The position numbers were made by a program, and so were the translations under genes. From positions 1 to 64,000 of the forward strand of contig JAFRLY010000046.1 in NCBI GenBank assembly GCA_017431005.1: DNA of 64,000 nt, in the 5' to 3' direction. The notes below the pieces were generated by a model. It was not told where the DNA came from and searched no databases. It saw nothing but the letters and a program-made list of their open reading frames with translations. Below are positions 14,530-34,894 of the stretch, in pieces. The stretch is from Clostridia bacterium. GTDB lineage: Bacteria > Bacillota > Clostridia > Christensenellales > Aristaeellaceae. Positions within the stretch are counted from its first letter, which is position 1; the number at the start of each line of letters is the position of its first letter.

Positions 14530-14544
14530 AAATTTATTCCCGTA

Positions 14545-17347: not shown

Positions 17348-17583
17348 TTTCTCATTCCCTCCGGATGTCATCCATAAGAATGCTCCTATTTTACACATTT
17401 TCTGTCTTTTGTTCAACTGTGCAGAAAACAGCAATTGCTGCGTTTCGTTACATATCATGTTACTGGAAGGAACCAGGAAGGTTGAATGAGTCTGTATCGG
17501 TTTGATTCTTTGTTTTTATTACCGAATACTGCAAATATTACAAAAAATTTACAATTTTGACCACAATATGTAGTGTAAATCAG

Positions 17584-17612
17584 TTGACGATCCCCGTATA
17601 TTTAGTTAATAT
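17584..17612 (+). promoter_or_regulatory. Promoter of the gene at 17648
   Basis: Plus strand TTGACG (17584-17589), 17 bases, TAATAT (17607-17612). Confidence 0.75.
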
Positions 17613-17647
17613 GTTACGAGATTAAAAAGGGAGAGGAGGGGGTACTT

Positions 17648-18175: not shown

Positions 18176-18186
18176 GATGCTTTTGG

Positions 18187-18212
18187 GGCACACCATCCCT
18201 GTGCCTTTTTTT
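18187..18212 (+). terminator. Terminator after the gene at 17648
   Basis: Hairpin GGCACA/TGTGCC (18187-18205) followed by seven T residues. Confidence 0.85.
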
Positions 18213-18260
18213 GTTTTCTTTTTCAGCACATTCACATTTTTATAAACGGAGGTATTTACC

Positions 18261-19937
18261 ATGTCCCAGTTTCTTTCCAATTCCCGGATGCATCAGGCCT
18301 GGCTTACCTGTCCTGCCATGCCGGAGGAGCTTCTCGCCGACCTGAAAGCAATGGATGAGGCAGCCGTCAGTGATGCCTTCTACCGTGAGCTCGCCTTTGG
18401 TACCGGCGGTCTCCGCGGTGTCCTTGGCGCCGGTACAAACCGGATGAATCTGTTCACAGTGCGCAAAGCCACACGCGGCCTCGGTTCCTATCTTAAGGAG
18501 ACCTTCCCGTCGCCATCCTGTGCCATCTCCTGCGACTCCCGCATTCATTCCCGGGACTTCGCGGAGCTGACTGCCGCAGTCCTGGCAGAGATGGGCATCC
18601 GTGTGTATCTGTATCCGAAGCTTCAGCCTACGCCAATGCTCTCCTACGCGGTTCGCCATCTGCACACTTCAGCCGGTGTTATGGTCACCGCCTCCCATAA
18701 TCCGGCTAAGTTTAACGGATATAAGGTTTATGGCGCGGATGGCTGTCAGATCACGCTGGAAGCAGCAGACCGCATACAGCATTTCATCGATGCTGAACCC
18801 GTCCTTTCGGATGCCTTGCCTGATTTTAACCATTACCTCTCTTCCGGAATAATTTCATACATTACGGAAGAAACGATAGAAGCTTATTATCAGGACATCC
18901 TGAAGCTCCGGGTTCATCCCTGCTCAGAATCGCTCCATCTGGTTTATTCTCCTCTGAACGGCACCGGCAATATCCCGGTTCGGGAGATCATGAAGCGCAT
19001 CGGCAACATTCAGGTGGATATTGTCGCCGAGCAGGAGCTGCCGGACGGACATTTTCCCACCTGTCCCTATCCGAATCCGGAAATCCGGGAGGCTATGTCC
19101 CTGGCAATTCAGAAAACGATTGAAACCCAGGCGGATTTTTGCTTTGCCACTGATCCTGACTGCGACCGCATGGGTGCCGGCGTCCGCGTCGGTAATGATG
19201 TGCAGCTGATTTCCGGCAACGATATGGGTATCCTGATGCTCGATTATCTTTGCCGCTCCGCAAAGCCGAGGGATCCTGCTTTCCCCCTCGTAGCAGTAAA
19301 GACTATTGTCTCCACTGAGATGGCTGCTGCCATATGTAAAAAATACAATGTTGAGCTTCGGAATGTCCTGACCGGCTTTAAGTTCATCGGCGAGCAAATC
19401 GGCCTGCTGGAAAAGGAAGGTCATCCGGATCGTTATCTCTTCGGCTTTGAGGAATCCTACGGCTATCTTTCCGGTACAGACGTCCGGGACAAGGATGCGG
19501 TCAACGCCGCCCTCCTGCTCTGTGAAATGGCTGCCAACCTGAAGGCTGAAGGCAAGACCCTTCTCTCCCGCCTGGAAGAGCTCCGCACTGAATTCGGCTT
19601 CTACGCCCAGCGCCTCCTGACCTTCCAGTACGAGGGCGAGAACGGTGCCAAAACCATGGCCAATATCATGTCCGCTCTTCGCGCACCTCTCAAAGGCTTC
19701 TCAGAATCCGAAATTCAGAACGCTGCCCGCATCGACTACCTGAATGATGAAACCGGACTCCCAAAGTCCGATGTCCTTTCTTTTACGCTTCCTTCCGGTT
19801 TCAAGTTTATCGTCCGTCCTTCCGGAACCGAACCAAAGCTCAAGGCTTACCTATTTGCCCAGGGTGTGGATCAGCAGACAGCGGAAAAAGAACTTGACAT
19901 TCTTGAAAGCATGGTACGCAGCCACTGTAAGGCATAA
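18261..19937 (+). CDS. Alpha-phosphoglucomutase / phosphomannomutase
   Basis: The 558-residue enzyme interconverts hexose 1- and 6-phosphates, most likely glucose, linking glycogen and sugar-nucleotide synthesis with glycolysis. All four active-site loops are clear: phosphoserine loop VTASHNPAKFNGYK near residue 152, metal loop DPDCDR near residue 302, sugar loop GFEESYGY near residue 400, and phosphate loop RPSGTEPK near residue 520. Its length matches the PgcA-type enzyme of Bacillota. The GGAGG site is 8 bases before the ATG. It shares a bidirectional terminator with the convergent zinc-ribbon gene. Confidence 0.94.
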   Translation: MSQFLSNSRMHQAWLTCPAMPEELLADLKAMDEAAVSDAFYRELAFGTGGLRGVLGAGTNRMNLFTVRKATRGLGSYLKETFPSPSCAISCDSRIHSRDFAELTAAVLAEMGIRVYLYPKLQPTPMLSYAVRHLHTSAGVMVTASHNPAKFNGYKVYGADGCQITLEAADRIQHFIDAEPVLSDALPDFNHYLSSGIISYITEETIEAYYQDILKLRVHPCSESLHLVYSPLNGTGNIPVREIMKRIGNIQVDIVAEQELPDGHFPTCPYPNPEIREAMSLAIQKTIETQADFCFATDPDCDRMGAGVRVGNDVQLISGNDMGILMLDYLCRSAKPRDPAFPLVAVKTIVSTEMAAAICKKYNVELRNVLTGFKFIGEQIGLLEKEGHPDRYLFGFEESYGYLSGTDVRDKDAVNAALLLCEMAANLKAEGKTLLSRLEELRTEFGFYAQRLLTFQYEGENGAKTMANIMSALRAPLKGFSESEIQNAARIDYLNDETGLPKSDVLSFTLPSGFKFIVRPSGTEPKLKAYLFAQGVDQQTAEKELDILESMVRSHCKA

Positions 19938-19950
19938 ACCCAAAATAAAA

Positions 19951-19980
19951 AATCAGCAGCCCACTGGCTGCTGATTTTTT
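19951..19980. terminator. Bidirectional terminator
   Basis: Stem AATCAGCAGCC/GGCTGCTGATT (19951-19976) with A-tract before and T-tract after, serving the phosphoglucomutase gene and the convergent zinc-ribbon gene. Confidence 0.93.
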
Positions 19981-19984
19981 CATC

Positions 19985-20278
19985 TTAGAAACGGCTGTTC
20001 TGCCTCTGAGCCTCAAAGCACTCGCGGCAATACACAGGGCGATCTCCACGGGGCTGGAAAGGCACCTGAGTCTCGCATCCGCAGCCATCGCAGATTACTG
20101 TGTACATCTGCCGGGGAGCACCATTGTTGCCATTCTGCGCACGACGTGCAGCGCGGCAGGCAGGGCAGCGGCTGGGCTCATTCTGGAAACCCTTCTGAGC
20201 AAAGAATTCCTGCTCGCTGGCAGAGAATACGAACTCGTTGCCGCAGTCACGGCAGGTCAAAGTCTTGTCTTCATACAT
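19985..20278 (-). CDS. Small zinc-ribbon protein
   Basis: This 97-residue cytoplasmic protein carries two zinc-ribbon units. The first uses CRDCG (Cys9, Cys12) and CPAC (Cys38, Cys41). The second uses CDGCGC (from Cys63) and CREC (Cys84, Cys87). It fits the probable zinc-ribbon domain family that is widespread in Clostridia; its role is unknown. An AAGGAGG site lies upstream of the ATG. A 125-base 5' leader separates it from its promoter, which is long for such a small gene. Confidence 0.88.
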   Translation of the reverse strand: MYEDKTLTCRDCGNEFVFSASEQEFFAQKGFQNEPSRCPACRAARRAQNGNNGAPRQMYTVICDGCGCETQVPFQPRGDRPVYCRECFEAQRQNSRF

Positions 20279-20410
20279 GGTGGTAATCCTCCTTTTTTAT
20301 GTTGTTTACCCGCGCCATTGGTGATGATACGCCCCGTTCCAGACAATGGTCAGTAAACAACCATGGAGGAAATGAACCGAATTAACCGTGGGCCTGGGCT
20401 AACAGACGTT

Positions 20411-20439
20411 ATTATAGCATGCGTTTTTCGGTTTGTACA
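20411..20439 (-). promoter_or_regulatory. Promoter of the zinc-ribbon gene
   Basis: Minus strand TGTACA (20434-20439), 17 bases, TATAAT (20411-20416). Confidence 0.65.
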
Positions 20440-20482
20440 GGGTTTATACGTACATTTTATAATTTTTCGGTGAAAAAGGCAC

Positions 20483-20510
20483 AAAAAAAGGGTAATGATA
20501 AACATTACCC
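20483..20510 (-). terminator. Terminator after the secreted protein gene
   Basis: Minus-strand hairpin GGGTAATG/CATTACCC (20490-20510) followed by seven T residues. Confidence 0.9.
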
Positions 20511-20528
20511 CGAAAATACCAGTTTAGC

Positions 20529-21086
20529 TTACTTATTGAATACCAGAGTAGCAACCAAACCCTTGTTCAGGATTTTCCCCAGCTCTTCAGCATTCAGGGT
20601 GATTGTAACTTTGCCTTCCTTTACGACAGCATCTTTCATCATCCACTCGCCGCTCTCAATAATATTGAACAGAACGCACAATTCCTCACCCTCTTCATAG
20701 GGAGTATCCAGTTCCATACCAAAGGTGAAGGATTCCACACCTTCGCCATCGCCGGTAGCCTTAAGAGCAACCATTTCCTTCAGGTTGTCCGCCAATTTCT
20801 CAGCGCTTAGGAAATCAGCAGGAATTGCAGCCAGAATGTCTGCGGGCAGTACACTGCTCAAATCACCGGCTTCAACTGCAGCGGCAATCGCGGTTTGCAG
20901 AGCGGTAACAGCTTCATCAGGCTCAACGATTTCAATAACAATATTAGCTTCTTTGTTGCCTTTAACATCAATGACATCAGCACCGGAAATATCCCCGGAA
21001 GTCTTTGAACCCACAGCTTCAGCAAACACGGCAGTTGTCATAACCATCATAGCCAGCACCAGCAATACAGCAATCAGTTTCTTCAT
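20529..21086 (-). CDS. Small secreted protein, unknown
   Basis: The 185-residue product begins with a clear signal peptide (MKKLIAVLLVLAMMVMTTAVFA, cleavage after AFA-like residues). The mature part is acidic, with an Ala-rich helical middle (LQTAIAAAVEAGDLSSVLPADI cut here to its theme) and a beta-rich C-terminal half, VTITLNAEELGKILNKGLVA. No lipobox, anchor or known domain is visible. It forms its own transcription unit with promoter and terminator. Codon use looks like that of the neighbouring surface genes. Confidence 0.8.
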   Translation of the reverse strand: MKKLIAVLLVLAMMVMTTAVFAEAVGSKTSGDISGADVIDVKGNKEANIVIEIVEPDEAVTALQTAIAAAVEAGDLSSVLPADILAAIPADFLSAEKLADNLKEMVALKATGDGEGVESFTFGMELDTPYEEGEELCVLFNIIESGEWMMKDAVVKEGKVTITLNAEELGKILNKGLVATLVFNK

Positions 21087-21148
21087 CGTAGTAGTTCCTC
21101 CTTCTGACTATTTTTCACGGCAAAAGCCGTAAAAATCAAATTCGAATT

Positions 21149-21177
21149 ATATTAACATTATATATATATTTCGTCAA
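21149..21177 (-). promoter_or_regulatory. Promoter of the secreted protein gene
   Basis: Minus strand TTGACG (21172-21177), 17 bases, TAATAT (21149-21154), in a very AT-rich stretch. Confidence 0.65.
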
Positions 21178-21229
21178 CTGTTTTTTGTCCTGATTCTGTT
21201 CTTTTTTATGGATTTTCCAGTTCTCTTTT

Positions 21230-21568
21230 TTAAACACTTGCCATCCACAATCCGTGAAGATTGCAGTACTCATATGCCGCTACTATCTTTTCAGTAGTTT
21301 TGAATATGGCTTCAGGTTTCATTCCGGGTTTCAGCCATTTCATCTGCATACCGGTGTCCGTCTGCAGCAGAATCCACTCGATGTAATGCGCTTCGAGGCT
21401 TGGATGCTCTGCCGTTCCGATCTTCACCGTCACTTCTTCCCCATGGACCATAATCACAGGAACATGCTTTTCTCCTGCTGCATCTGTCGTGTTTGGTATC
21501 AGTTCTGTGCCGGCTGTCAGTTCCTTGTCAGAAATAATGACCTGATCTTCAAGCTTATAAAATTTCAT
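21230..21568 (-). CDS. Superoxide reductase (desulfoferrodoxin family, center II only)
   Basis: This 112-residue protein matches the neelaredoxin-type superoxide reductases, which reduce superoxide to hydrogen peroxide without making oxygen and so suit anaerobes. The five iron ligands are at His35 (EKHVP), His55 and His61 (AEHPSLEAHYIEW), and Cys102 and His105 (YCNLHGLW), with family spacing. Glu33 next to Lys34 gives the usual active-site pair. The N-terminal rubredoxin-like center I is absent. The ATG at 21568 follows an AGGGAA site. It lies 63 bases behind the BIG2 gene and could be the end of that transcript, though the functional link is unclear. Confidence 0.92.
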   Translation of the reverse strand: MKFYKLEDQVIISDKELTAGTELIPNTTDAAGEKHVPVIMVHGEEVTVKIGTAEHPSLEAHYIEWILLQTDTGMQMKWLKPGMKPEAIFKTTEKIVAAYEYCNLHGLWMASV

Positions 21569-21631
21569 CAATATTCCCTTCCTTATATCTCAGATTATTG
21601 TACTTTTTATATACTTACCATGAACAACCAT

Positions 21632-23512
21632 TTACGGACTTATTTTCACCTTCTCAGCAACAATCGCTGGAATCAGTGTGTTCGACTGCAGAGATTCGCT
21701 GTAGAGCTGCTCCATCTGAAAGGTTCCGTAAAGGGTGATCTGCTCGCTGTCGTTCAGTTCCTCTTTATGAAGTATGTTTACCGGAACCTTAGCCCAGAGC
21801 ACCTGATCACTGTAATCATTTCCGGCAGTACCGATGGTCAGAGTGAGCACTGATTCATTCGCATCCTGAATTTGCAGGATTTTGCCGGATATGCTCATGG
21901 GTGTATTAATATATGCGAATGGATTCCGGACAATATCAGCATAGACGATCACCGGATATGAAATCTCATTGTAAACCGCTGAATTATCGATCGATACTTT
22001 TATTTCTGTCTGATCTGCAGGAGCAGCGGGATTATTGAGAATAACGGTACCTTCACCGGCGTTTTCAGGATAGATGACAAGATTCTTCGCTTCATCCAGA
22101 GATGCGGTAAAAGCATTGCCGGTGGTCTGAAGCTCAAGCTCATTTATCTCTGAACTGTACATGACCGGAATGGTAATTCCGGCTTTCTCGGTGACTGTGA
22201 AAGCATCTCCATCCACCAAGAATGATGGTACATGCACTTCAAGCTGGGCACTAATACCGCTGCCATCCAAAGCCGCGCAGGTAATAATACAGTCTCCGGC
22301 GCCGACCGCCTCTATACTTCCATCCGCCACCTGAGCAACAAAAACATTGGAGGACGTCCAGACAAGCTCCTGATTGGTAGCATCTTCCGGCAGAACCTGA
22401 ACTGCAATTTTACGAATATTGCCGGTGGACAGTGTCAAAAATCTTTCTTCCGGTTCAGTTATATTAATAACTGCAACTGGCTGTGTCACAACGACATGAC
22501 AAAGGGCGGATAGTTCGCTGCCATCAAGTGTCGTGACAGTGATATCTGCTTCTCCGCCACCTTCAGCAGTCAGTTTTCCGGTATCATCGACCTTTATTAC
22601 TTCATCATTGGAGCTTGTCCAGGATAGCTTTTTATTGCTGGCGGTTTCGGGTAAAACAGCAGCGCTCATAGAATAAGTCTGCCCGACACTCAGCACCAGG
22701 TTCTGTGAATCCAGATTAATACCGGTGGCAGGCTGAATCACATTTATGTCATATGAAACCTGCCTGGATCGGATTCCCAGATCCGGATCCTCTGCCACAG
22801 AAGCAATAATCGTAGTTTTTCCGGCAGAGCAGCCGTATACTTTTCCATCTGTGTCCACAGAAGCTATTTCCGGATTGGAGGAAGACCATACAATCGGAGG
22901 AATATATGCGTCCTCAGGCTCAGCAATTACACTGAGAAACGTTTCTGACAGCGATGAATCAGCATTCAGGAGCAGGGTATCGCTTTCTCCCCAGACAGTA
23001 AGCTTTTCCAGTGGAATCAGCACCTTTACGACAAAGGAACCAGTCAGGTACGTGTTGTCCTTCGCTGCAGCGGTTATAGTTGCCACACCGCGGGATATGC
23101 CTGTCACCCTGCCGTTATCATTGACCTGGGCCACTTCAGTATCAGAAGAGGACCATATAAAAGCTGTACGAGCCGGAGCGGTATCCTTTAAAAATGTTAC
23201 GATAGGATTTTGAAAGATCGTTCTGTGTGTAAAAAAACTGATTTCAGGCAATTCAAAAGTTATCAGGCGGTCCGCATTCTCCAGGGCAATCTGTCTGTCC
23301 AGATCTGCCAGGCGGGACTCTACTGCCTGCTTCAGCAGCAGTAACTGATCATAATCATACTGCGCCAGATCAATCCCTTCATATAAATAAGTATTATCAT
23401 TCTCGGGCATGATAGGCTGGATTGTTGTCTCTTCTTCAGCCCTGCTCACAGAAGCACAGCTAAACATCATTACAGCCGCCAGGAGAAAAAGCAGCACTCT
23501 GGTTTTCGTCAT
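21632..23512 (-). CDS. Secreted protein with repeated BIG2 (Ig-like) domains
   Basis: This 626-residue exported protein has a signal peptide with a lipobox-like LLFLLAAVMMFSCAS, so it may be a lipoprotein. A short helical region (residues 45-80) is followed by four bacterial Ig-like group 2 domains. Each is marked by a WSSS or WTSSN-x-x-v core, as in FIWSSSDTEVAQVNDNGRVT, and similar blocks recur near residues 200, 295 and 385. The last 200 residues form two further beta-rich domains without repeats. Such proteins display adhesive domains at the cell surface. It lies 23 bases behind the Pro-Thr-Glu repeat protein gene in the same direction. Confidence 0.88.
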   Translation of the reverse strand: MTKTRVLLFLLAAVMMFSCASVSRAEEETTIQPIMPENDNTYLYEGIDLAQYDYDQLLLLKQAVESRLADLDRQIALENADRLITFELPEISFFTHRTIFQNPIVTFLKDTAPARTAFIWSSSDTEVAQVNDNGRVTGISRGVATITAAAKDNTYLTGSFVVKVLIPLEKLTVWGESDTLLLNADSSLSETFLSVIAEPEDAYIPPIVWSSSNPEIASVDTDGKVYGCSAGKTTIIASVAEDPDLGIRSRQVSYDINVIQPATGINLDSQNLVLSVGQTYSMSAAVLPETASNKKLSWTSSNDEVIKVDDTGKLTAEGGGEADITVTTLDGSELSALCHVVVTQPVAVINITEPEERFLTLSTGNIRKIAVQVLPEDATNQELVWTSSNVFVAQVADGSIEAVGAGDCIITCAALDGSGISAQLEVHVPSFLVDGDAFTVTEKAGITIPVMYSSEINELELQTTGNAFTASLDEAKNLVIYPENAGEGTVILNNPAAPADQTEIKVSIDNSAVYNEISYPVIVYADIVRNPFAYINTPMSISGKILQIQDANESVLTLTIGTAGNDYSDQVLWAKVPVNILHKEELNDSEQITLYGTFQMEQLYSESLQSNTLIPAIVAEKVKISP

Positions 23513-23535
23513 AATTAATTCTCCCCTATGTATGG

Positions 23536-25413
23536 TTAATCAATCTCATGATCAGCAATGTCATACCTTGTTTTTTTAAGTAACACACCATTATCATCAT
23601 ACTGATAACGATATGCTACGGTCCCGTCAGCCAGTTTGATTGCAAAACCATCGGTTCCGTAAAATTTCTCATAAACCACACGATTATACCCATCAAATTC
23701 CCTATATACAATTGCATAGCCAGCCGAACAGCAGACAGGGAGATTCTCCTTGTCGTAATACTTTTCACGGTTGATATTACCTTTTTGATCATAGGTGTAA
23801 TCCACCCTGCAATAGGTTTCATTACCTATAGTCATTAGCTCGTTATTCTCATCATACCATCGTTCAGATATGATATGATCCTTGCTCATCACTCTCACTC
23901 TGGTAACAAAACCCAATTCCCCCAGAACCGGTTTACCGGAAAAATCATAATATGTCTCAGTGACAGCCTCCGGATCGTCTGTAAAATTGGCAGTCTGAAG
24001 CAGCACCGGAGTCGGCATCGGAGTCTGAGTCGGCACAGGAGTCTGAGTCGGCGCAGGTATGGGGATGGGAGTCTGCGCTTGAACAGGCGAAGGTATGGAC
24101 GTCGGTTCCGAGGTTGCAGTTTCGGATAATTCCGGAGGCTGTTTCTCTGCAGGGGTTTCAGCAGGCTCTGCAGTTGATTCCTCTGCAGGTTCTTCCAGCA
24201 TATCAATGGTAAGCAGGACAGATGGTTGACCTGTAGGTTCAGGTGTCTCTGCAGGAATCTGAGTTGGCTCCGCGGTAGGTTCAGACGTGGGTTCCGGTGT
24301 GGGCTCCGCGGTTGGTTCAGGCGTGGGCTCCGGTGTGGGCTCCGCAGTTGGTTCAGGCGTTGGCTCCGCGGTAGGTTCAGGCGTGGGTTCAGGCGTTGGC
24401 TCCGCGGTAGGTTCAGGCGTGGGCTCCGGTGTGGGCTCCGCGGTTGGTTCAGGCGTGGGCTCCGGTGTGGGCTCCGCGGTTGGTTCAGGCGTGGGCTCCG
24501 GTGTGGGCTCCGCAGTTGGTTCAGGCGTGGGCTCCGCGGTAGGTTCAGGTGTAGGTTCCGGTGTGGGTTCCACGGTAGGTTCAGGCGTAGGTTCTGCGGT
24601 GGGTTCAGGCGTAGGTTCAGGTGTGGGCTCCGCTGTAGGTTCCTGTGTGGGTACAGCCGTAGGCTCCGGAGTAAGCAAAACTGTTCCGGATTCCTGCTGC
24701 TTCCAGCTGATCTTAATGGACCACGGGTCAAAGGAAAGCCTGGGTTTTCCGCTGTCTGTCATAATTTTCAGGACAGATTCAAGCATAGTGCCTTCCGGAT
24801 CCTCCAGTCGTTTTCCTTTCGCATCCATGAAGGTAACACGACTTAATGAGTCAGATTCATATCTCGCATAAACATGCGCATATCCGATAGCTGTATTATG
24901 GATTTTACCATCTGTACCATAAAAGGTAAGTTCGGTTACCCTGCGCCACCCATCATAGTCAAGCTTCAGCACAGAGTAACCATCTGGATTATCAGCACGG
25001 TTCCCTTTTGTATCGAGATAACGTATTTTAAAGGGATATTCCCTGAAATCCTCATACTGGCATTCTACGCTCGCATAACCGTTCGCACCTGTTTCCGGCA
25101 ACTGGTTATCGTCCACAAACGTGTAGGTAACAGTCTTGGTGCGTTTATCCACCGTCATTCTGACATCAGGCTCACGGACAGTTTCATTTTCTTCAGAGAT
25201 GTTATTCTCTGTTATACCGATCTTTTTATCAGGATCCGTGTTATTTTCAGAAAAGATTATTCCATCTTCCGACTCTCCCTGCTTTGAATCAATGCTCATC
25301 ATTTCAGCAATGATCGCATCCACATTAATTGTAGGCAAAGATCGGGATTCCTCTGCAGCAGCTGCAGAGAAAAGCAGAAGGAAAGCGAGCAGGAAGGCCC
25401 GGATCTTTTTCAT
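23536..25413 (-). CDS. Secreted Pro-Thr-Glu repeat protein with flanking YD-like repeats
   Basis: The 625-residue product starts at 25413, the third of three consecutive ATGs, 7 bases after AGGAG. The signal peptide (MKKIRAFLLAFLLLFSAAAA) follows. Residues around 85-205 and the last 150 contain imperfect repeats of about 24 residues of the form GYA-x5-Y-x-GWRRVTELTFYGTDGK or INREKYYDKENLPV, resembling YD or MORN-like wall repeats. Between them lies a stretch of about 140 residues made almost only of TPEP and TAEP units, probably an extended cell-wall-spanning stalk. No LPxTG or membrane anchor is seen. It is cotranscribed with cpsB (22-base gap) and the BIG2 gene. Confidence 0.88.
   Translation of the reverse strand: MKKIRAFLLAFLLLFSAAAAEESRSLPTINVDAIIAEMMSIDSKQGESEDGIIFSENNTDPDKKIGITENNISEENETVREPDVRMTVDKRTKTVTYTFVDDNQLPETGANGYASVECQYEDFREYPFKIRYLDTKGNRADNPDGYSVLKLDYDGWRRVTELTFYGTDGKIHNTAIGYAHVYARYESDSLSRVTFMDAKGKRLEDPEGTMLESVLKIMTDSGKPRLSFDPWSIKISWKQQESGTVLLTPEPTAVPTQEPTAEPTPEPTPEPTAEPTPEPTVEPTPEPTPEPTAEPTPEPTAEPTPEPTPEPTAEPTPEPTPEPTAEPTPEPTPEPTAEPTPEPTPEPTAEPTPEPTAEPTPEPTPEPTAEPTPEPTSEPTAEPTQIPAETPEPTGQPSVLLTIDMLEEPAEESTAEPAETPAEKQPPELSETATSEPTSIPSPVQAQTPIPIPAPTQTPVPTQTPMPTPVLLQTANFTDDPEAVTETYYDFSGKPVLGELGFVTRVRVMSKDHIISERWYDENNELMTIGNETYCRVDYTYDQKGNINREKYYDKENLPVCCSAGYAIVYREFDGYNRVVYEKFYGTDGFAIKLADGTVAYRYQYDDNGVLLKKTRYDIADHEID
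24250..24672 (-). repeat. In-frame tandem repeats encoding TPEP/TAEP
   Basis: Tandem units of 24 and 36 bases encode PTPEPTAE and PTPEPTPEPTAE. The copies are nearly identical at the DNA level (plus strand theme GGTTCAGGCGTGGGCTCC). All units are multiples of three, so copy-number change would alter stalk length without breaking the frame. The same repeats create spurious long ORFs on the plus strand. Confidence 0.93.
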
Positions 25414-25435
25414 CATCATTCTCCTTACCGTAAAT

Positions 25436-26143
25436 TCATTCATCAAAAAGAATATTTACCCGTTGACGAATCGCAGAGGCAGCCACGGTGCCATATTTAT
25501 CTTTGAGCACTTCCATTGCCGGAGTCATACAGGTTTCCCGTCCGGGCAGAGCATGTGTGTCCGTTGCGATAAAGTCCACCAATCCGCGGCGAAACAGCTC
25601 CTCCTGGAACCCGCGTCGCAGGAGAGGTGCCTTACGCAGCAAAGTACGCCCATTGATCTGAATCAGGGCATGATACCGGGTTTTCATTTCCTCTGCCTGT
25701 CTGATTTTCCCGATCGCAGGATAACGCTCCATATGAGCAATGATCGGAACAAATCCTGCCCCCGTCACCTTCTGCAGGGCATCAGTAATATGGTCAGCCT
25801 TATCGGATGGACTGAACTCTATAAGTGCATATCGGCTGCCAGCCAGGGTAGGCACCTTGCCTTCTCTCAGTAAGCGCGGCGTCAGATCCGTATATAACAG
25901 TTCTGCGCCTTTATACAGGGAAAGAGGCAGTTTTTCCTTTCGGATAAAAGCCAGTGCCTGTTCAAAGTGATCGTCAAAAACGTCTTGCGGAAAAGGGTAA
26001 ACTCCCGGAGTAATATGTGGAGTGCAAATGATCCTGGATATTCCATCGTTTACAGCTTCGCGAAGCATGTCCCAGGTTTCTTCCCGGTCTTTTGCACCAT
26101 CATCCACACCCCAGATAACGTGACTGTGCATATCAGTATACAT
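25436..26143 (-). CDS. cpsB: CpsB/CapC-family tyrosine-protein phosphatase (PHP fold)
   Basis: This 235-residue protein has the PHP-type metal motifs of the CpsB/YwqE phosphatases: MYTDMHSHVIWGVDDGAKD at the N-terminus, CTPHITPGVYP near residue 40, IAHMERYPA near residue 135 and FIATDTHALPGR near residue 190. These enzymes dephosphorylate the tyrosine kinases that control capsule and surface polysaccharide synthesis. No matching kinase (Wzd/Wze type) is in the window, which is odd. It starts 3 bases after the LCP gene stop, so the two are one operon. A GGTGGA site lies 7 bases before the ATG. Confidence 0.92.
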   Translation of the reverse strand: MYTDMHSHVIWGVDDGAKDREETWDMLREAVNDGISRIICTPHITPGVYPFPQDVFDDHFEQALAFIRKEKLPLSLYKGAELLYTDLTPRLLREGKVPTLAGSRYALIEFSPSDKADHITDALQKVTGAGFVPIIAHMERYPAIGKIRQAEEMKTRYHALIQINGRTLLRKAPLLRRGFQEELFRRGLVDFIATDTHALPGRETCMTPAMEVLKDKYGTVAASAIRQRVNILFDE

Positions 26144-26146
26144 TGC

Positions 26147-27148
26147 TTATTCCACCCTCGTATAGAGATGGCTCAGAACCCATTCCACTGCAGCGCCTTC
26201 CTCCATGTGAAACTCCATGAAGCCATCCGCTCCAATGCTGTAGTTGCCGGCAGGATGATCTACCGGCAGGACAGTGAAGTTATAAGCGGTATTCATTTCC
26301 TCCAGAAGACGTTTTTGGGAAAGATTCGTAACAGCAATATCGCTTAGAGTATTCAGCATAACTTCACCGAAGCTCAGATCCGCAGAAATCTTTTTGTTCA
26401 TTGTATTGATGGCATTACGCATAAACTCGTTCTGGCGGACCATTCGTTCTTCATTTGTGCCGGCGCCAACAGTCATTCTGGAACGGACAAAGGCTTCCGC
26501 ATCCTTTCCGTGGAGCACAATGTCGGCACCCTTTGTCCAGGCCGGATCCACAGAGGTCATATCATAATCCATGTGCACTTTGACGCCGCCCAGGACATCA
26601 TTCAGAAGAGGAACGGCAGAATAGTCCACAACGTAATATCCATCGATCTCCATGCCGTCAAGGAGGTTCTGAACGGCCTTGACTGTATATTTGGCATTGT
26701 CCTGTTTGGATCCGCCGTAACTGTGAGCAAGACAGATCTGCAATACACGGGTCCCGACCTCATTTCCGAAAACACCGAGAATCTGAACATCCGTCATTGT
26801 ATCACGATCGATCTGAAGCTGATGAATCTGCTTATCTGTCTGATCTATGGCCAGGAGCATCAGAAAGTCCGCCTGACCGCCATTGCGGTAGCGGCCTGTC
26901 TGTTCCCGGGCGTCGGGTTTGTCGATACCAGCGATCAGAATTGTGGTGACCGCTGGTTTTTCCCGCCAGGTCTGACCTTTCCATTCCACAGTTTTCAGTT
27001 GTCCAAAGTGCTCGCTCATGGTGCCGCGCTTTTCTGCATAATGCGCGTCATCCTCTTTCTGCAGCAGAATGAGCGCACCGGCAAGAACCGCCAGTGCCAG
27101 AGCCCCTATCACAATACCGCGAATCCACAGATGCTTTCTGTTATGCAT
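26147..27148 (-). CDS. LytR-CpsA-Psr (LCP) family glycopolymer transferase
   Basis: LCP enzymes attach wall teichoic acids, capsules or other glycopolymers from lipid carriers to peptidoglycan. The 333-residue protein has a short basic N-terminus, one membrane helix (GIVIGALALAVLAGALILLQ) and the extracellular LCP domain. The arginine and aspartate-rich motifs are visible in TILIAGIDK, FLMLLAIDQT, LQIDRDTM and AFVRSRMTVG. An ATG at 27148 is preferred over the TTG at 27154 because GAGAGG lies 9 bases before it. With cpsB next door it points to a surface glycopolymer pathway whose synthesis genes are elsewhere. Confidence 0.9.
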   Translation of the reverse strand: MHNRKHLWIRGIVIGALALAVLAGALILLQKEDDAHYAEKRGTMSEHFGQLKTVEWKGQTWREKPAVTTILIAGIDKPDAREQTGRYRNGGQADFLMLLAIDQTDKQIHQLQIDRDTMTDVQILGVFGNEVGTRVLQICLAHSYGGSKQDNAKYTVKAVQNLLDGMEIDGYYVVDYSAVPLLNDVLGGVKVHMDYDMTSVDPAWTKGADIVLHGKDAEAFVRSRMTVGAGTNEERMVRQNEFMRNAINTMNKKISADLSFGEVMLNTLSDIAVTNLSQKRLLEEMNTAYNFTVLPVDHPAGNYSIGADGFMEFHMEEGAAVEWVLSHLYTRVE

Positions 27149-27182
27149 AACCAAAAGCCTCTCTCACTCTCGGGCTTTGGTT
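27149..27182 (-). promoter_or_regulatory. Hairpin covering the LCP ribosome binding site
   Basis: Minus-strand arms AACCAAAGCC and GGCTTTTGGTT (27173-27182 and 27149-27159) with one bulged base enclose the GAGAGG region and end directly at the ATG. There is no T-tract, so it would act on translation rather than as a terminator. Confidence 0.5.
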
Positions 27183-27278
27183 AAGGTTCACTTATAGCCT
27201 GCCCGATGTTTTACTTGTTTCTGCCGCTCCGGGGATTACTCTTTCTTTCACAGCAGCCAGATTAACTGTCACAGTATA

Positions 27279-27307
27279 ATAATACTTCTTTGTATTCAAC
27301 CTGTCCA
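27279..27307 (-). promoter_or_regulatory. Promoter of the LCP-cpsB operon
   Basis: Minus strand TGGACA (27302-27307), 17 bases, TATTAT (27279-27284). It gives a leader of about 125 bases. Confidence 0.65.
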
Positions 27308-27681
27308 GAACAACTTTATGCATGATTCTTTCCAAACCGGCACGCCTGTAATCGGCATCTGACGATAAGCACGCAGCAGATCACGGCTCCTCGTTTTATT
27401 ATATTCCAGTGCGAGGATGAATCATATGGCAGTAACGGAGCCTGCAATACATGTATTTCCTGCAGCCTGATATATCGTTTTATAAATGCAAAAAATATTC
27501 CGCTGCAGCAGAAAAACAGACTAAAGCGTAAATTTATAATCCGCTGAATTTTCTCTGTAAAACAGTATGTAAATTCTGCCAGGTCTGATACTTTCCCATT
27601 GGATTTTGTTCCGTTCAGAAAACAGTTATCTGATACATATTTATATCCTTGTGGTTTATATCCTTCATATTGTAAATCCAT
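27308..27681. other. Intergenic stretch without a supported gene
   Basis: About 370 AT-rich bases lie between the LoaP-type gene and the LCP promoter. A minus-strand reading frame of 121 codons starts right after the loaP stop codon, but it has no ribosome binding site and no recognisable protein features. The stretch may be a long untranslated region or the remains of a lost gene. Confidence 0.5.
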
Positions 27682-28254
27682 TTATATAACAGTCTTGGTC
27701 TCAAGCATATCAAGTCCCAGCCAGACCCGGTTCAGTGCACCAGCCAGAAGAATTTCAATTTCAGCAATGTGTTTTCTCTTGTCAACCCGCAGCACTCTGC
27801 CGTTCACATTCTGCAGGATTTTATCTGTAACGCGTACAAAATCTCCTTCGCGAACGGCACGAAGTTTCGGGAACATGCCATTAACATTGAAAAGCTCATC
27901 TGCAAAAGCCTGGTCATATCCCCGAAGCCTTGATGTGCCGTCGTCGTAGCGCAGCAGACGAATTGCATGATTGACTTTATGCAGGTACCACGAAGGCACA
28001 GATCCTTCCAGAAAAACATAACCGGGAAGCAATGCCTTCCTCTCATCCTGCCAGATGCCACGGCGGCATACAGGGACGACTCGCTGCGGGAAAAGTGCAC
28101 GGCCAAAACCGCAGTATTCCATCGTCCTTGCAACCAGTGTCTCACTTCCCGATTTGCAGAAGATACAGCAATAGGAGATTTCTGATGAATCAGAAATATG
28201 TTGTTTCCTTTGATTCGGCAGCGCCTGTTCAAGGGTTTTGTCTGAAAAAATCAT
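27682..28254 (-). CDS. loaP: NusG paralogue, LoaP-type antitermination factor
   Basis: The 190-residue protein has the two domains of specialised NusG proteins. The NGN domain includes ALFPQRVVPVCRRGIWQDER and LLPGYVFLEG (about residues 30-90). The C-terminal KOW domain includes VREGDFVRVTD and NGRVLRVDKRKHIAEIEI (about 130-175). LoaP proteins bind RNA polymerase and a leader RNA element to read through terminators in long polysaccharide or metabolite operons next to them. The ATG at 28254 has GGAG 7 bases upstream; the longer reading from 28293 lacks a site. The neighbouring LCP-cpsB-surface-protein operon is the likely target. Its own leader contains an attenuator. Confidence 0.87.
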   Translation of the reverse strand: MIFSDKTLEQALPNQRKQHISDSSEISYCCIFCKSGSETLVARTMEYCGFGRALFPQRVVPVCRRGIWQDERKALLPGYVFLEGSVPSWYLHKVNHAIRLLRYDDGTSRLRGYDQAFADELFNVNGMFPKLRAVREGDFVRVTDKILQNVNGRVLRVDKRKHIAEIEILLAGALNRVWLGLDMLETKTVI

Positions 28255-28389
28255 ATCAACGCTCCGATTATTCACAAATAAACCGTACATCATAAATGCA
28301 ATGGTTCCGGAAAACCAGCGTTCACATTATCAGGAAATCAATTTGTCAGTTTTAATGATAATTGTTTCATAAAAAACCTTTATAAAAGC

Positions 28390-28415
28390 AAAAAACAGAA
28401 AGCAAAACTGCTTTC
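28390..28415 (-). terminator. Attenuator-like terminator in the loaP leader
   Basis: Minus-strand hairpin GAAAGCA/TGCTTTC (28398-28415) followed by six T residues. It lies about 55 bases after the loaP promoter start and 135 bases before the start codon, so transcripts must read through it to reach loaP. Confidence 0.75.
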
Positions 28416-28475
28416 CTTTTTCATTCGCAGGATCCGTAAACGCTTGTTTTTAAACGGTTTTGCGAACTTTAAAAA

Positions 28476-28504
28476 ATTATATGGAAATATAGTATTGTTG
28501 TCAA
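28476..28504 (-). promoter_or_regulatory. Consensus promoter of loaP
   Basis: Minus strand TTGACA (28499-28504), 17 bases, TATAAT (28476-28481), both boxes perfect, just downstream of the tRNA cluster terminator. Confidence 0.88.
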
Positions 28505-28544
28505 TACGCCAATAACATGTAACCGTTATAGTAACCATCGAAGC

Positions 28545-28578
28545 AAAAAAACACCTGTCAGTATTCCCTGACAGGTGT
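28545..28578 (-). terminator. Terminator of the tRNA cluster
   Basis: Minus-strand hairpin ACACCTGTCAG/CTGACAGGTGT (28551-28578) followed by six or more T residues, 6 bases after tRNA-Cys. Confidence 0.93.
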
Positions 28579-28583
28579 CTGAG

Positions 28584-28655
28584 AGGTGCCATCCAGATTC
28601 GAACTGGAGAATAAAGGTTTTGCAGACCTTCGCCTTACCACTTGGCTATGGCACC
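28584..28655 (-). tRNA. tRNA-Cys (GCA)
   Basis: Cloverleaf with acceptor GGTGCCA/TGGCACC, anticodon loop CTGCAAA and T-loop TTCGAAT. The discriminator base is U, as expected for cysteine. CCA is not encoded. It is the last of five tRNAs in one transcript. Confidence 0.95.
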
Positions 28656-28666
28656 ATAAAAAATGG

Positions 28667-28739
28667 AGCGGTAGACGGGACTCGGACCCGCGACATCCAC
28701 CTTGGCAAGGTGGCACTCTACCAACTGAGCTACTACCGC
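28667..28739 (-). tRNA. tRNA-Gly (GCC)
   Basis: Acceptor GCGGTAG/CTACCGC, anticodon loop TTGCCAA and discriminator U. CCA is not encoded. Fourth gene of the cluster. Confidence 0.95.
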
Positions 28740-28749
28740 ATATAAACTG

Positions 28750-28822
28750 TGCCTTGGGGCGGAATCGAACCACCGACACTGTGATTTTCAGTCACATGCT
28801 CTACCGACTGAGCTACCAAGGC
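28750..28822 (-). tRNA. tRNA-Phe (GAA)
   Basis: Acceptor GCCTTGG/CCAAGGC, anticodon loop CTGAAAA and discriminator A. CCA is not clearly encoded. Third gene of the cluster. Confidence 0.95.
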
Positions 28823-28827
28823 ACAAA

Positions 28828-28904
28828 TGGCGACCCGGATGGGGCTCGAACCCACGACCTCCAGCGTGACAGGCTGGCGCTCTAACCAACTGAGCTACCG
28901 GGCC
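28828..28904 (-). tRNA. tRNA-Asp (GTC)
   Basis: Acceptor GGCCCGG/CCGGGTC, anticodon loop CTGTCAC and discriminator G. The 3' CCA is encoded and included. Second gene of the cluster. Confidence 0.95.
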
Positions 28905-28910
28905 AGATAA

Positions 28911-28986
28911 TGGTGGGAACAACAGGGCTCGAACCTGTGACCCTTTGCTTGTAAGGCAAATGCTCTCCCAGCTGAGCTATGCTCCC
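28911..28986 (-). tRNA. tRNA-Val (TAC)
   Basis: Acceptor GGGAGCA/TGTTCCC, anticodon loop CTTACAA and discriminator A. The 3' CCA is encoded. First gene of the cluster, about 40 bases after the promoter. Confidence 0.95.
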
Positions 28987-29028
28987 GAAGCTTACCGAGA
29001 AAGTATCTCCTCCGCAAGCGGCTTGCCT

Positions 29029-29057
29029 ATGATATCTCATTTCATATCCAATGTCAA
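29029..29057 (-). promoter_or_regulatory. Promoter of the tRNA cluster
   Basis: Minus strand TTGACA (29052-29057), 17 bases, TATCAT (29029-29034), between the PG-binding protein stop and tRNA-Val. Confidence 0.85.
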
Positions 29058-29075
29058 GCCCCTTTTTTTTCGTTT

Positions 29076-30065
29076 TTACCAGGAATGTTTCGCAGCTTCC
29101 TTGACCATTTTTTGATGCATATCATCCACTTTCTTAGATCCATGAGTTTTGCTTTTGTAGAAATGAATGCAGAAATGGCCGTCAAAATTATTGTTTGAAA
29201 TTGTGGAAGTGCCATGTGGCATACCGTTCATGGAAGCAGCGTAAACATGTCCGTTATAGCGAACCAGAATTGCCCGGCGTTTCCAGCTCCAGTGACCGTA
29301 AATGCTCTTCATGATTTTTGTATCTGAAGCAGTGAGCGGTTCGCAGTCCATGTGGTTATAGCCCGTCCAGCGCTTTACTTTAAAAGTCTTGCCGGTCCTG
29401 ATATCCTTGACAGTGAAAGTGGTATGATGAGGAATTTTGTCGGATCCGCCTTTGAACCAGTTCGGCATTTCTGTGCCTTTGGCTGTAGATGTGCTCTCTC
29501 CGCCGGATGCATCGGATGCAGACGCTTTTTTTGCGTTGGAGCTGTTCAGCTTCGCAAGCGTTTTAGCGCCAACTTTCCCATCCGCAGAAAGCCCGTTGCG
29601 TTTTTGGAAATTTTTTACTGCTGTTTTTGTTCCGTTGCCATAATCTCCGTCAACCGAACCGGTATAATAACCAAGTTTCTTAAGACGCTGCTGTACCTTC
29701 TTGACAGCACTGCCGGTATCGCCCGGACCGCATGTGCCGTCTGAAGAAGAGGATCTGGAGGAAGAAGATTTGTTTGAATCCGACTTATTATTTGATGAGG
29801 AAGAAGAGCTTCCAACTTTTATATATTTTTTGTAAACGTAGCCGGTCGTTCCTCCGGCAGATACTTTATACCAGCTGCCAGAGGTATCTTTGATCTCAAC
29901 CTTTGCGCCTTCCCTGAGCACCTTAACAACTTTTGCATCCGATGAAGCGGATTTCCGCATATTCAAGCTTGAAGCCGTCACTGTGCCGGTCTTCGCCAGA
30001 GCAAAGACTGGAAACAGAATGAGAAACAGTAGAAGAAGAAGGCAGACGCGTATCTTTTTTGGCAT
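29076..30065 (-). CDS. Secreted SH3 and peptidoglycan-binding protein with CEPLTAxDT domain
   Basis: This 329-residue protein has a signal peptide (MPKKIRVCLLLLLFLILFPV) and a bacterial SH3 domain at about 25-85 (ASSLNMRKSASSDAKVV, TTGYVYKKYIKVG). A Ser/Asn-rich linker leads to a peptidoglycan-binding type 1 domain at about 110-175 (VKKVQQRLKKLGYYTGSVDG). The C-terminal domain of about 110 residues has HMDCEPLTASDTKIM and NNFDGHFCIHF, with conserved His and Cys, and recurs in the protein at 34895. The domain could be an enzyme acting on the wall, but no known family is evident to me. The ATG at 30065 is chosen for GGAGGG 10 bases upstream and the immediate signal peptide. Confidence 0.87.
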   Translation of the reverse strand: MPKKIRVCLLLLLFLILFPVFALAKTGTVTASSLNMRKSASSDAKVVKVLREGAKVEIKDTSGSWYKVSAGGTTGYVYKKYIKVGSSSSSSNNKSDSNKSSSSRSSSSDGTCGPGDTGSAVKKVQQRLKKLGYYTGSVDGDYGNGTKTAVKNFQKRNGLSADGKVGAKTLAKLNSSNAKKASASDASGGESTSTAKGTEMPNWFKGGSDKIPHHTTFTVKDIRTGKTFKVKRWTGYNHMDCEPLTASDTKIMKSIYGHWSWKRRAILVRYNGHVYAASMNGMPHGTSTISNNNFDGHFCIHFYKSKTHGSKKVDDMHQKMVKEAAKHSW

Positions 30066-30099
30066 GTCAGACGTTCCCTCCTTCCCCATAATCAGAGAC

Positions 30100-30128
30100 A
30101 GTTTATTACGATTCTGTTACATTGTCAA
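30100..30128 (-). promoter_or_regulatory. Promoter of the secreted SH3 protein gene
   Basis: Minus strand TTGACA (30123-30128), 17 bases, TAAACT (30100-30105). Confidence 0.7.
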
Positions 30129-30208
30129 TAAAAATTGTTACTTTTCTTTTTCTTTTCATCCGTTTTTTTTTTCTGAATGACAATGCACTGTGAATTTCGT
30201 TTTTTCTC

Positions 30209-30237
30209 TTGACATGAAAGGTTCTGAGTGGTAAAGT
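30209..30237 (+). promoter_or_regulatory. Promoter of rplJ-rplL
   Basis: Plus strand TTGACA (30209-30214), 17 bases, TAAAGT (30232-30237). Confidence 0.8.
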
Positions 30238-30242
30238 TACAA

Positions 30243-30370
30243 AGGTTTGTGAGAAACCAGTGCCGAAGACAGCCGGTATCGAAGGATTTAAAGGGTTTAA
30301 TCCCGCCTGCCGAGGTGTAAAGGATAACTTTGATGTTTTTCCCTTGCGCCTGCACGCAAGGGTTTTTCTA
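30243..30370 (+). ncRNA. L10-type ribosomal leader with attenuator
   Basis: The leader contains the blocks GTGCCGAAGACAGCCGG and CCTGCCGAGGTG that I know from Bacillota L10 leaders. It ends in the terminator hairpin CCCTTGCG/CGCAAGGG (30341-30362) followed by TTTTT. In this class the L10-L12 complex binds the leader and controls its own operon. Confidence 0.85.
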
Positions 30371-30402
30371 TTCTGAACCGGAAACGAGGTGTGATGAGAA
30401 AA

Positions 30403-30903
30403 ATGAGCGCAAATCTTGAACTGAAGAAACAGGTTGTGGCTGACATCATCGAAAAGTTCAAAGGTGCTGAATCCGTTGTTGTCTGCTCTTACAGCGGACT
30501 TACCGTAGAGCAGGTGACCGAACTGCGCAAACAGTGCCGTGAGAACGACGTGCATTACTGCGTGCTGAAGAACCGTCTGGTGGGCCGTGCACTGGCCGAG
30601 TTAAATATCGAAGGACTGAACGATCTTCTGGAAGGTCCCAATGCATTTGTATTTGGCACAAAGGATGTTACCGCCGCCCCGAAGATCATCAACAGCTTTA
30701 TCGAGAAGAATAAGCTGACCTCCCTGGAAATCAAGGGCGGACTGATGGGAACCGAAAAGATGGACGTGGCCGCTGTAAAAGCCCTGGCTGCGACACCCAG
30801 TCGCGAAGAACTGCTTGCTACGCTGGTTGGCTGCCTGCAGTCCCCGATTTCCGGCCTGGTGGCCGTGCTGGATCAGATTGCCGAGAAAAAGGATGCTGCC
30901 TGA
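30403..30903 (+). CDS. rplJ: 50S ribosomal protein L10
   Basis: L10 anchors the L7/L12 dimers to the ribosome and forms the stalk base. The 166-residue reading from 30403 (MSANLELKKQVVADIIEKFK) aligns with the B. subtilis start. Further in, SYSGLTVEQVTELRKQCREN and GPNAFVFGTKDV are typical. In-frame GTG 30391 and ATG 30394 are closer to the GAGGTG site and cannot be excluded. It is followed by rplL after 83 bases. Confidence 0.96.
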   Translation: MSANLELKKQVVADIIEKFKGAESVVVCSYSGLTVEQVTELRKQCRENDVHYCVLKNRLVGRALAELNIEGLNDLLEGPNAFVFGTKDVTAAPKIINSFIEKNKLTSLEIKGGLMGTEKMDVAAVKALAATPSREELLATLVGCLQSPISGLVAVLDQIAEKKDAA

Positions 30904-30986
30904 TCCTTTCCCTGCGCCGCGTAGTTGCGGCTTAATCAGCGGCCATCGTGCCGCATAAAACAAATATTTAATTGGAGGAATTTTCC

Positions 30987-31355
30987 ATGACTAATCAGGA
31001 AATCATTGAAGCCATTGAGTCAATGACTCTGCTTCAGGTTAAAGAACTGGTGGATGAACTGAAAGAGAAGTTCGGTGTGACTGGCGCGATTGCCGTTGCC
31101 GGCGGTGCCGCTCCTGCTGCAGCCGCTCAGGAAGAAGAGAAGACTGAGTTTGACGTCATCCTGAAGGATGCCGGTTCCGAAAAGATCAAGGTTATCAAGG
31201 TTGTGCGCGAAGTCGTGTCCGGCCTGGGACTGAAGGAAGCCAAGGATATCGTCGAATCTGCTCCCAAGACTCTGAAGGAAGCTGTTTCCAAGGAAGAAGC
31301 GGAAAAGATCGCCGAGCAGTTCAAGGCCGTCGGTGCCACCGTCGAAATCAAGTAA
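30987..31355 (+). CDS. rplL: 50S ribosomal protein L7/L12
   Basis: The 122-residue acidic stalk protein recruits translation factors. It has the N-terminal dimerisation helices, the Ala-rich hinge ([13 protein letters not shown]) and the C-terminal globular domain ([20 protein letters not shown]). The ATG at 30987 has GGAGG 8 bases upstream; the longer reading from 30972 would include the site itself. A terminator follows 15 bases after the stop. Confidence 0.98.
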
Positions 31356-31369
31356 TCATCGTTTTTACA

Positions 31370-31395
31370 GCGGATGCCTGCGGGCATCCGCTTTT
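31370..31395 (+). terminator. Terminator of rplJ-rplL
   Basis: Hairpin GCGGATGCC/GGCATCCGC (31370-31391) followed by TTTT. Confidence 0.88.
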
Positions 31396-31397
31396 GT

Positions 31398-31426
31398 TTG
31401 CCAATTCAGAGGGGCTTTGTTATAAT
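31398..31426 (+). promoter_or_regulatory. Promoter of the CHAP-domain gene
   Basis: Plus strand TTGCCA (31398-31403), 17 bases, TATAAT (31421-31426), directly behind the rplL terminator. Confidence 0.75.
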
Positions 31427-31460
31427 AATTTATTAGATTTATACGGGAGGAGGCAGCAGT

Positions 31461-32438: not shown

Positions 32439-32492
32439 GTCAATCAGATATATTACTGATTATTTACAAGAAAAAATCTGAGGGATAAGCCA

Positions 32493-34691: not shown

Positions 34692-34852
34692 CTGCTCACC
34701 CCTGTACAAATAATCCCTTTTCTGACACACGTCTTTTTTTGCCGTTCCATCCGGGAAATTTCACTATTATATTATCATAGAAGACAGGTGCGCTTTCGTA
34801 TTTTTTAAGTCTTTTCCGCATCTGTGGAACATTCAGCAGCGGATAGCCTTAT

Positions 34853-34882: not shown

Positions 34883-34894
34883 CCGGCCAGCTTC

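Follow-up and report, generated by a model that had tools for sequence, protein, structure and literature searches.

The closest described counterpart of the locus reported here is LoaP of Bacillus velezensis, a NusG paralog that binds a hairpin in the leader RNA and keeps NusA from stimulating termination at the terminator of that leader (PMC12691694). In the accessible parts of that source, to which all citations of it refer, loaP often adjoins operons for secondary metabolites or polysaccharides; within the literature covered, the hairpin of the dfn and mln leaders is the sole LoaP leader hairpin that has been studied. The window analyzed here is a stretch of 64,000 nucleotides (nt) from a Clostridia bacterium of the Aristaeellaceae (GenBank assembly GCA_017431005.1, contig JAFRLY010000046.1, positions 1 to 64,000). 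On its minus strand a gene for a LoaP-like protein, here called loaP, lies behind an attenuator-like leader and precedes genes for an LCP-family ligase, a CpsB-type phosphatase and secreted proteins. We consider it probable (about 0.7) that this locus represents the attachment half, led by LoaP, of a duplicated and reciprocally eroded capsule or exopolysaccharide operon, inserted beside a tRNA-Cys gene. The host genome is a 3.0-Mb metagenome-assembled genome (MAG) in 63 contigs, 85% complete. It belongs to a genus set of 45 genomes, its own included; a set of 396 genomes of the order was used for the comparison of LoaP proteins.

Like the B. velezensis system, the window combines a NusG paralog with a leader in which a hairpin precedes an intrinsic terminator, represented here by a terminator-like site (PMC12691694). 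It differs from dfn and mln, which are polyketide operons with a UNCG-loop hairpin, by the AAGC end loop of its hairpin and by a protein that scores below the LoaP cut-off and is known from sequence alone. The association of loaP with LCP and CpsB genes, the usual head genes in this genus, is shared with LoaP polysaccharide operons (PMC12691694); unlike those, the locus is without cpsC, cpsD and sugar genes, which are carried by another contig under a sister loaP. Bacteroides UpxY, as presented in the accessible part of PMC7819879, is also a NusG paralog behind a leader with premature termination, is associated with capsule operons and occurs as several paralogs per genome. The window protein differs in that at E 0.01 it matches the LoaP and NusG models only, with no match to the UpxY model. 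Its sister protein scores 34.2 bits with the UpxY model, below the cut-off of 100 and below its own LoaP score of 99.8. The literature covered, mostly open access, yielded no split LoaP-capsule system and no LoaP with ABC-transporter or pilin targets.

The window locus and its probable counterpart on a second contig

The locus has seven reading frames on the minus strand, all intact from start to stop. The loaP gene (27682..28293, 203 amino acids (aa)) is separated by 527 nt from the gene of an LCP-family glycopolymer ligase (PF03816; 26147..27154). From there, with intergenic spacings of at most 60 nt each, follow the CpsB/CapC-type phosphatase gene (25436..26143; PF19567, 3.8e-56) and genes for a secreted protein with Pro-Thr-Glu repeats (PT protein; 23536..25446), a secreted protein with four Big_2 domains (21632..23512) and a desulfoferrodoxin-like protein (21230..21571). 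The last of these, assigned by a family match mainly to the iron-binding domain, sits within a cluster of cell-wall genes. A gene for a small secreted protein (20529..21086) comes last and a terminator-like hairpin (20489..20511) closes the locus. No match to a glycosyltransferase, polymerase or flippase was found among the locus genes scanned. The locus thus holds the LCP ligase and the CpsB phosphatase taken to mark a LoaP-led capsule operon; cpsC was not detected and cpsD is present as a remnant.

This remnant lies in the gap between loaP and the LCP gene. Stop-to-stop pieces of the gap were compared with profiles built from genus proteins (14 CpsC, 19 CpsD, 19 LCP, 14 CpsB and 23 LoaP sequences). 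The profile of CpsD, a tyrosine autokinase, scored 21.8 bits at 27335..27418 (minus strand; profile positions 174-201 of 263), a value reached by none of 1000 dinucleotide shuffles, whose best score was 7.3 bits. The next piece (27273..27329, minus strand; profile positions 204-222, 8.7 bits) is collinear with the first and in a different frame. The first piece agrees best with the CpsD encoded on contig C33 of the host genome, sharing 16 of 24 residues with it; for the remaining 18 CpsD proteins the figure is 6 to 14. Judging from the remnant, cpsD most likely once stood between loaP and the LCP gene, as in relatives, and has since been lost. The CpsB, LCP and LoaP profiles gave scores in the gap that shuffled sequences also reached (CpsB 2.0 bits, 42/1000; LCP -1.6 bits, 634/1000; LoaP -1.0 bits, 487/1000). 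A first look at the gap by nucleotide search and tblastn had found only the gap itself; cpsD is visible by profile search. A frame of 121 aa directly after loaP (27316-27681) was considered as a gene and is taken as spurious, because part of it coincides with the cpsD remnant in a different frame and it has no Pfam family above cut-off.

Genomes of the genus show where such genes usually reside. A CpsB match (E 1e-10) is present in 24 of the 45 genomes and an LCP match (E 1e-25) in 19. Beyond the window, LCP was located in 20 places. In 19 of them cpsD is no more than 8 kb away on the same strand, and in the other (G034) the contig ends 43 nt past the LCP gene. Most of the 19 have cpsD adjoining LCP; in G009 the two are separated by 7.6 kb that include loaP and one other gene. 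Among the 18 places examined for loaP, eight have it within the same stretch as LCP. The most complete arrangement described here is a single-strand 28-kb cluster of G020 (from ~546.9 to 518.3 kb) with the order loaP-cpsC-cpsD-LCP-cpsB, a small secreted protein and a PT-type protein, continued by sugar and glycosyltransferase-like genes and ended by a 45% homolog of the window Big_2 protein. Partial homologs of the PT protein and weak relatives (31-34%) of the small secreted protein also occur in polysaccharide clusters of relatives. Since G020 and other relatives hold them there, most of the "surface" genes of the window are at home in polysaccharide clusters. Within this genus, polysaccharide clusters, several of them LoaP-led, usually include LCP and CpsB genes. 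The desulfoferrodoxin-like gene was not found in the G020 cluster, and no separate search was made for it. Big_2 homologs in G043 and G011 are located away from capsule genes. A solitary gene of G043 (L150:8988, minus strand) encodes a 38% homolog of the window Big_2 protein behind its own exact TTGACA-17-TATAAT promoter.

The first-pass annotation had noted on this strand the LCP and CpsB genes and two large surface proteins without glycosyltransferases, as confirmed here, within a locus that extends further than it had placed it, to 20529. It had proposed from this content a new type of LoaP target, dedicated to wall ligation and adhesion. Such a locus would fit the absence of cpsC, intact cpsD and glycosyltransferase genes among those scanned, the retention of loaP, promoter and attenuator-like leader, and the placing of a block of ~8 kb as a unit beside tRNA-Cys. 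It is quite improbable given the cpsD remnant within the locus, the same kinds of genes, homologs of the surface proteins among them, in polysaccharide clusters of relatives, the sister LoaP of the same genome that leads cpsC and cpsD, and the genus-wide comparison, in which none of the 20 other LCP places was seen to be without cpsD (19 with it, one cut off). The locus is real and was correctly seen; its promotion to a new target class is not supported.

The genes lacking from the window locus are found on contig C33. There, the LoaP gene at C33:6604 has its own exact promoter and is followed by cpsC, cpsD and genes for sugar dehydratase-like and aminotransferase-like proteins, and no LCP or CpsB match was found on the contig at E 1e-8. 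The window CpsB is the single match of the host genome at E 1e-10, and a second match to the window LCP was not obtained at E 1e-25. The window and C33:6604 LoaP proteins are sisters in the tree described below (support 97/86; 57-59% identity). A duplicated operon head followed by reciprocal loss is the simplest history, in which the two halves would share a common ancestor. An operon head loaP-cpsC-cpsD-LCP-cpsB plus secreted proteins would once have existed in two copies. The window copy would have lost cpsD, and presumably cpsC and the sugar genes too, keeping loaP, LCP, CpsB and the secreted proteins; the C33 copy would have kept loaP, cpsC, cpsD and the sugar genes, without an LCP of the window kind and without cpsB. 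In the resulting split system C33 would make the polymer, and the window locus would attach it to the wall and reset the CpsD kinase.

The site of insertion is bordered on the left by a gene for a zinc-ribbon protein (19985..20278) and on the right by the terminator-like hairpin of an upstream tRNA operon (28549..28580) and the tRNA cluster Val-Asp-Phe-Gly-Cys (28583..28986), all on the minus strand; the zinc-ribbon gene and the tRNA cluster are kept in relatives. Of the regions fetched from relatives, 19 are flank regions and a twentieth, which is not, was set aside. Among these 19, eight show both the zinc-ribbon gene and the tRNA cluster, read there as Cys-Gly-Phe-Asp-Val. Six of these (G001, G002, G003, G007, G027 and G031) are near-empty sites with ~250 nt between the flanks; G029 and G030 have ~1.4 kb and ~7.2 kb, with other genes inside. 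No loaP match above 50 bits was found in any of the 19 regions. As the sequence beside each flank gene is still recognizable in the window, the insertion spans roughly 20450-28540. It adjoins tRNA-Cys, and no integrase match was found among the genes scanned. The other genes present in the interval in L249 (G030) and L237 (G029) indicate that it is possibly an insertion hot spot. In L249 a heavy-metal-ATPase-like gene, identified by eye, stands between the zinc-ribbon gene and tRNA-Cys. A search of the window against Rfam returned five tRNAs and an L10 leader; around loaP there were three sub-threshold matches.

The GC content of the locus is 46.6%, compared with 56.2% for 10000-20278 and 59.1% for 38000-64000, and that of the loaP-LCP gap is 39.7%. 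This composition, with a cpsD fragmented over two frames, would also suit a decaying relic whose loaP and surface genes are disappearing after loss of capsule synthesis and have no current function. That reading is unlikely in view of the seven open frames, the exact promoter, and LCP and CpsB proteins that retain 58-69% identity to their counterparts in seven relatives.

Several points speak against an eroded half-operon. What is left of cpsD is short, at 28 + 19 residues, and the cpsC profile revealed no detectable remnant in the gap (3.5 bits, 21/1000 shuffles as high). The low GC is not limited to the locus, 29000-37000 having 49.4%. Two further LCP-family proteins are encoded on contigs C42 and C24, so the window LCP may be dispensable for the C33 system, and another cpsB or LCP gene could be missing because the MAG is 85% complete and in 63 contigs. 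The GC content at third codon positions (GC3) of loaP is 0.47 in the window and 0.71 on C33; therefore the duplication was not recent or one of the copies was imported. The tree program flagged long branches meeting between the eight-member group described below and the rest of the tree, not at the window/C33 pair. Finally, the 527-nt gap holds a promoter-like site with 10 of 12 matching positions, so that the genes from LCP onward may not depend on the loaP promoter.

The LoaP-like protein and its leader

The window protein scores 69.9 bits (E 2.7e-19) with the LoaP model NCBIfam NF033641 and 24 bits (E 2.6e-5) with the core NusG model TIGR00922. It is named LoaP-like because the first score is under the curated cut-off of 125 bits, which is exceeded in none of the 45 genus genomes. 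The PDB match 8f5g is an entry named NusG that we take to be LoaP. The RNA-contact residues E40, R41 and I143 given in the accessible parts of PMC12691694 are not mappable onto its numbering with certainty. A tree of 63 sequences sets the window protein apart from core NusG (support 100/100) and places the window/C33 pair beside eight LoaP-like proteins whose genes precede that of an ABC-transporter ATPase (support 98/99). The next LoaP outside the host genome among the 396 order genomes is that of G146, which is 40% identical and leads sugar genes. A scan of named organisms with both sister LoaPs returned four distant loci, one in Clostridiaceae and three in Spirochaetes. The host genome has five NF033641 matches: besides the sister pair, C33:64903 leads a second polysaccharide cluster, C51:2312 (L037:2309-2878, minus strand) is an orphan of the capsule-type clade without capsule genes downstream, and the C10 match is core NusG by the tree.

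Two other gene neighborhoods were met during this survey. In L039-L046 (from G016, G028, G034, G033, G013, G005, G041 and G044) the LoaP-like gene overlaps or abuts the start of the ABC-transporter ATPase gene; the ATPase is UgpC/MalK-like by NCBIfam in L041, the one scanned, and permease-like genes come next where checked. These eight loci are not polysaccharide operons. In a large group, the same gene directly follows the LoaP-like gene in six of seven loci (L207, L198, L203, L205, L193 and L196); in the single locus scanned, Pfam identifies its product as a SpoU-type RNA methyltransferase.

The leader of the window loaP has the order promoter, hairpin, terminator-like hairpin, gene. As the first-pass annotation had stated, the σ70-type promoter is perfect (28476..28504, minus strand; TTGACA-17-TATAAT, 12 of 12 positions). 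Exact promoters with a 17-base spacer occur eight times in ~1.5 Mb of fetched sequence, a partly overlapping sample gathered around loaP and capsule genes, and three of the eight are at loaP leaders. Further exact TTGACA and TATAAT promoters of the window, with spacers of 16-17, are at 36094, 4466 and 3003 on the minus strand. The 5'-terminal hairpin of 45 nt (28423..28467, minus strand) is a candidate LoaP-binding RNA. It is followed by the leader terminator that the same annotation had named, a terminator-like hairpin with a U run (28390..28416, minus strand; site 28416-28397) that is a candidate attenuator. Folding of the leader is more stable than in most shuffled sequences for +1..+50 (z -2.39; 31/1000 shuffles equal or better) and for +1..+110 (z -2.52; 18/1000 as good); the difference is less clear for the terminator alone (z -1.42; 86/1000) and for a 109-nt cut of the leader (only z -1.39; 22/200). 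Taken together, terminator-like sites show no clear enrichment (11 observed vs 6.9 +/- 2.8 expected). As anatomy, the pairing of a LoaP-like protein and an attenuator-like leader is supported. The annotation had also pointed to two places for dual-hairpin elements. The one at 28390-28470 has the hairpin and terminator-like site; the other, at 27150-27300, shows no structure beyond chance (27140-27310: z -0.31, 69/200 shuffles as good) and no notable match to the R1 model described below.

Transcription would start from the exact promoter and the 5' hairpin would recruit LoaP, which would let RNA polymerase past the leader terminator and perhaps past weaker ones downstream. By such read-through loaP would feed its own expression and that of the following genes, an autogenous antitermination that may also raise the genes after loaP. 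One can suppose instead that loaP serves itself or a distant target and that the genes from LCP onward are an independent operon, which would be compatible with the split-operon history. We regard this as rather unlikely, with a small share of the probability. It draws on the 527-nt gap, where the 10/12 promoter-like site (27307-27279) and a terminator-like site (27513-27498) are found, and on the orphan loaP of C51. The folding of the whole gap (about 532 nt) gives z -1.42, with 5/100 shuffles as good. Arguing against an independent operon, lower-quality promoter-like sites are about as frequent in the region as expected by chance (15 observed vs 13.7 expected), and in the capsule-type clade capsule genes mostly come directly after loaP. 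When the host genome was searched with the window leader at the nucleotide level, no second copy beyond chance matches appeared; therefore no distant target shares the leader at that level, which also speaks against a wide regulon.

A hairpin and an ops-like motif in related leaders

A hairpin, named here R1, is common to leaders of the capsule-type LoaP clade. In an alignment of 12 copies 88.5% of the cells are paired and two-sided changes affect six of eight pairs; the covariation score is reached in 0/500 shuffles and slid versions are far lower. This structure is the RNAalifold register plus two hand-added pairs, picked on the same alignment as that tested. A first hand-drawn structure was out of register, with 59.5% of cells paired, and was discarded. 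With strict filters, the R1 model finds 12 sites at E <=1.4e-6 in nine of the 45 genomes, which are its 12 building sites, and one extra weak match in G017 (E 0.037). Nine sites end 75-94 nt before the NusG-domain match of loaP and account for nine of the ten loaP genes of the clade: L037:2871-2905(-), L047:510-545(+), L050:10822-10857(-), L053:9749-9784(-), L054:8688-8723(+), L135:12880-12915(-), L139:10047-10082(-), L201:4211-4246(+) and L211:1615-1649(-). The remaining three, in G043, are not at loaP (L139:12811-12846(-), L266:1556-1591(-) and L267:10515-10550(-)). The G043 sites precede cpsC, an adenosylhomocysteinase gene and, at a distance of 0.84 kb, a SpaH/EbpB-type LPXTG pilin gene, and are possible targets in trans. 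The last of them is a point for the dedicated wall-ligation and adhesion locus considered above, since it implies that LoaP-type signals may have surface-protein targets. Five R1 loci tested against Rfam gave no family match at E 1.

The sequence GCGRAGCYWTG is present 37-61 nt downstream of all 12 R1 sites. The pattern was read off the nine sites at loaP, so the three others of G043 are its only test, and they are possibly mutual copies; the motif would be expected ~0.002 times at each. The narrower GCGRAGCYATG occurs 19 times in the ~1.5 Mb sample, compared with 2 to 5 times for each of six control patterns; loaP genes or R1 sites account for 15 of the 19. It also precedes loaP in L048, L214, L221 and L222, and L037 has a CTTG variant. 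L037 is the leader of the C51 orphan, which combines R1 and this variant with a perfect 13-bp 5' hairpin. A loose GCGNAGC within 150 nt of the domain precedes 9/10, 5/11, 7/27 and 0/8 genes of four other LoaP groups and 0/5 core nusG genes, and is present before the G146 loaP (background 6.8% per 150 nt); it is absent within that distance before the window and C33a loaP genes. From these counts, the motif is at best partial outside the capsule-type clade. Neither part of the signal was detected at the window loaP: the ops-like motif was not found there, and the best R1 match in 20000-29000 has 10 bits (E 0.43) and lies on the plus strand inside loaP. The best R1 match in L038 (C33b) has 9.4 bits, and L035 (C33a) has none at E 5.

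The short sequence GCGAAGC is the 2-bp case of a stable DNA hairpin. The related CGCGAAGCG forms an extraordinarily stable DNA hairpin (PMC10527192). The GCGRAGCYWTG motif of the other-clade leaders resembles the RfaH target ops12, GGCGGTAGCGTG, in sequence and in a putative small hairpin of the non-template strand, as far as the accessible part of PMC5995543 describes it. The window leader differs from the RfaH/ops system by having no such motif. We tentatively propose, at somewhat less than even odds, that a two-part signal recruits LoaP-like factors in this genus, made of a covarying R1-type hairpin and, 37-61 nt further on, GCGRAGCYWTG, in which GC-GNA-GC would form a very stable non-template mini-hairpin. 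It would thus unite two known modes of recruitment, the RNA hairpin used by LoaP and an element like the ops of RfaH. Besides loaP leaders, the signal would serve capsule and LPXTG-pilin loci in trans; in the host species it would survive at the orphan loaP alone, and both halves of the split operon would have passed to a second LoaP lineage whose hairpin-terminator leader is private to it.

The split operon, if true, shows that a LoaP-led capsule operon can be divided between two loci, each with its own sister LoaP. It also warns against inferring a new target class from every LoaP gene that neighbors surface genes. The two-part leader signal of the relatives is the more surprising result, and may be the more useful one: the R1 hairpin and the ops-like motif give a handle on how LoaP-type factors outside Bacillus find their operons.

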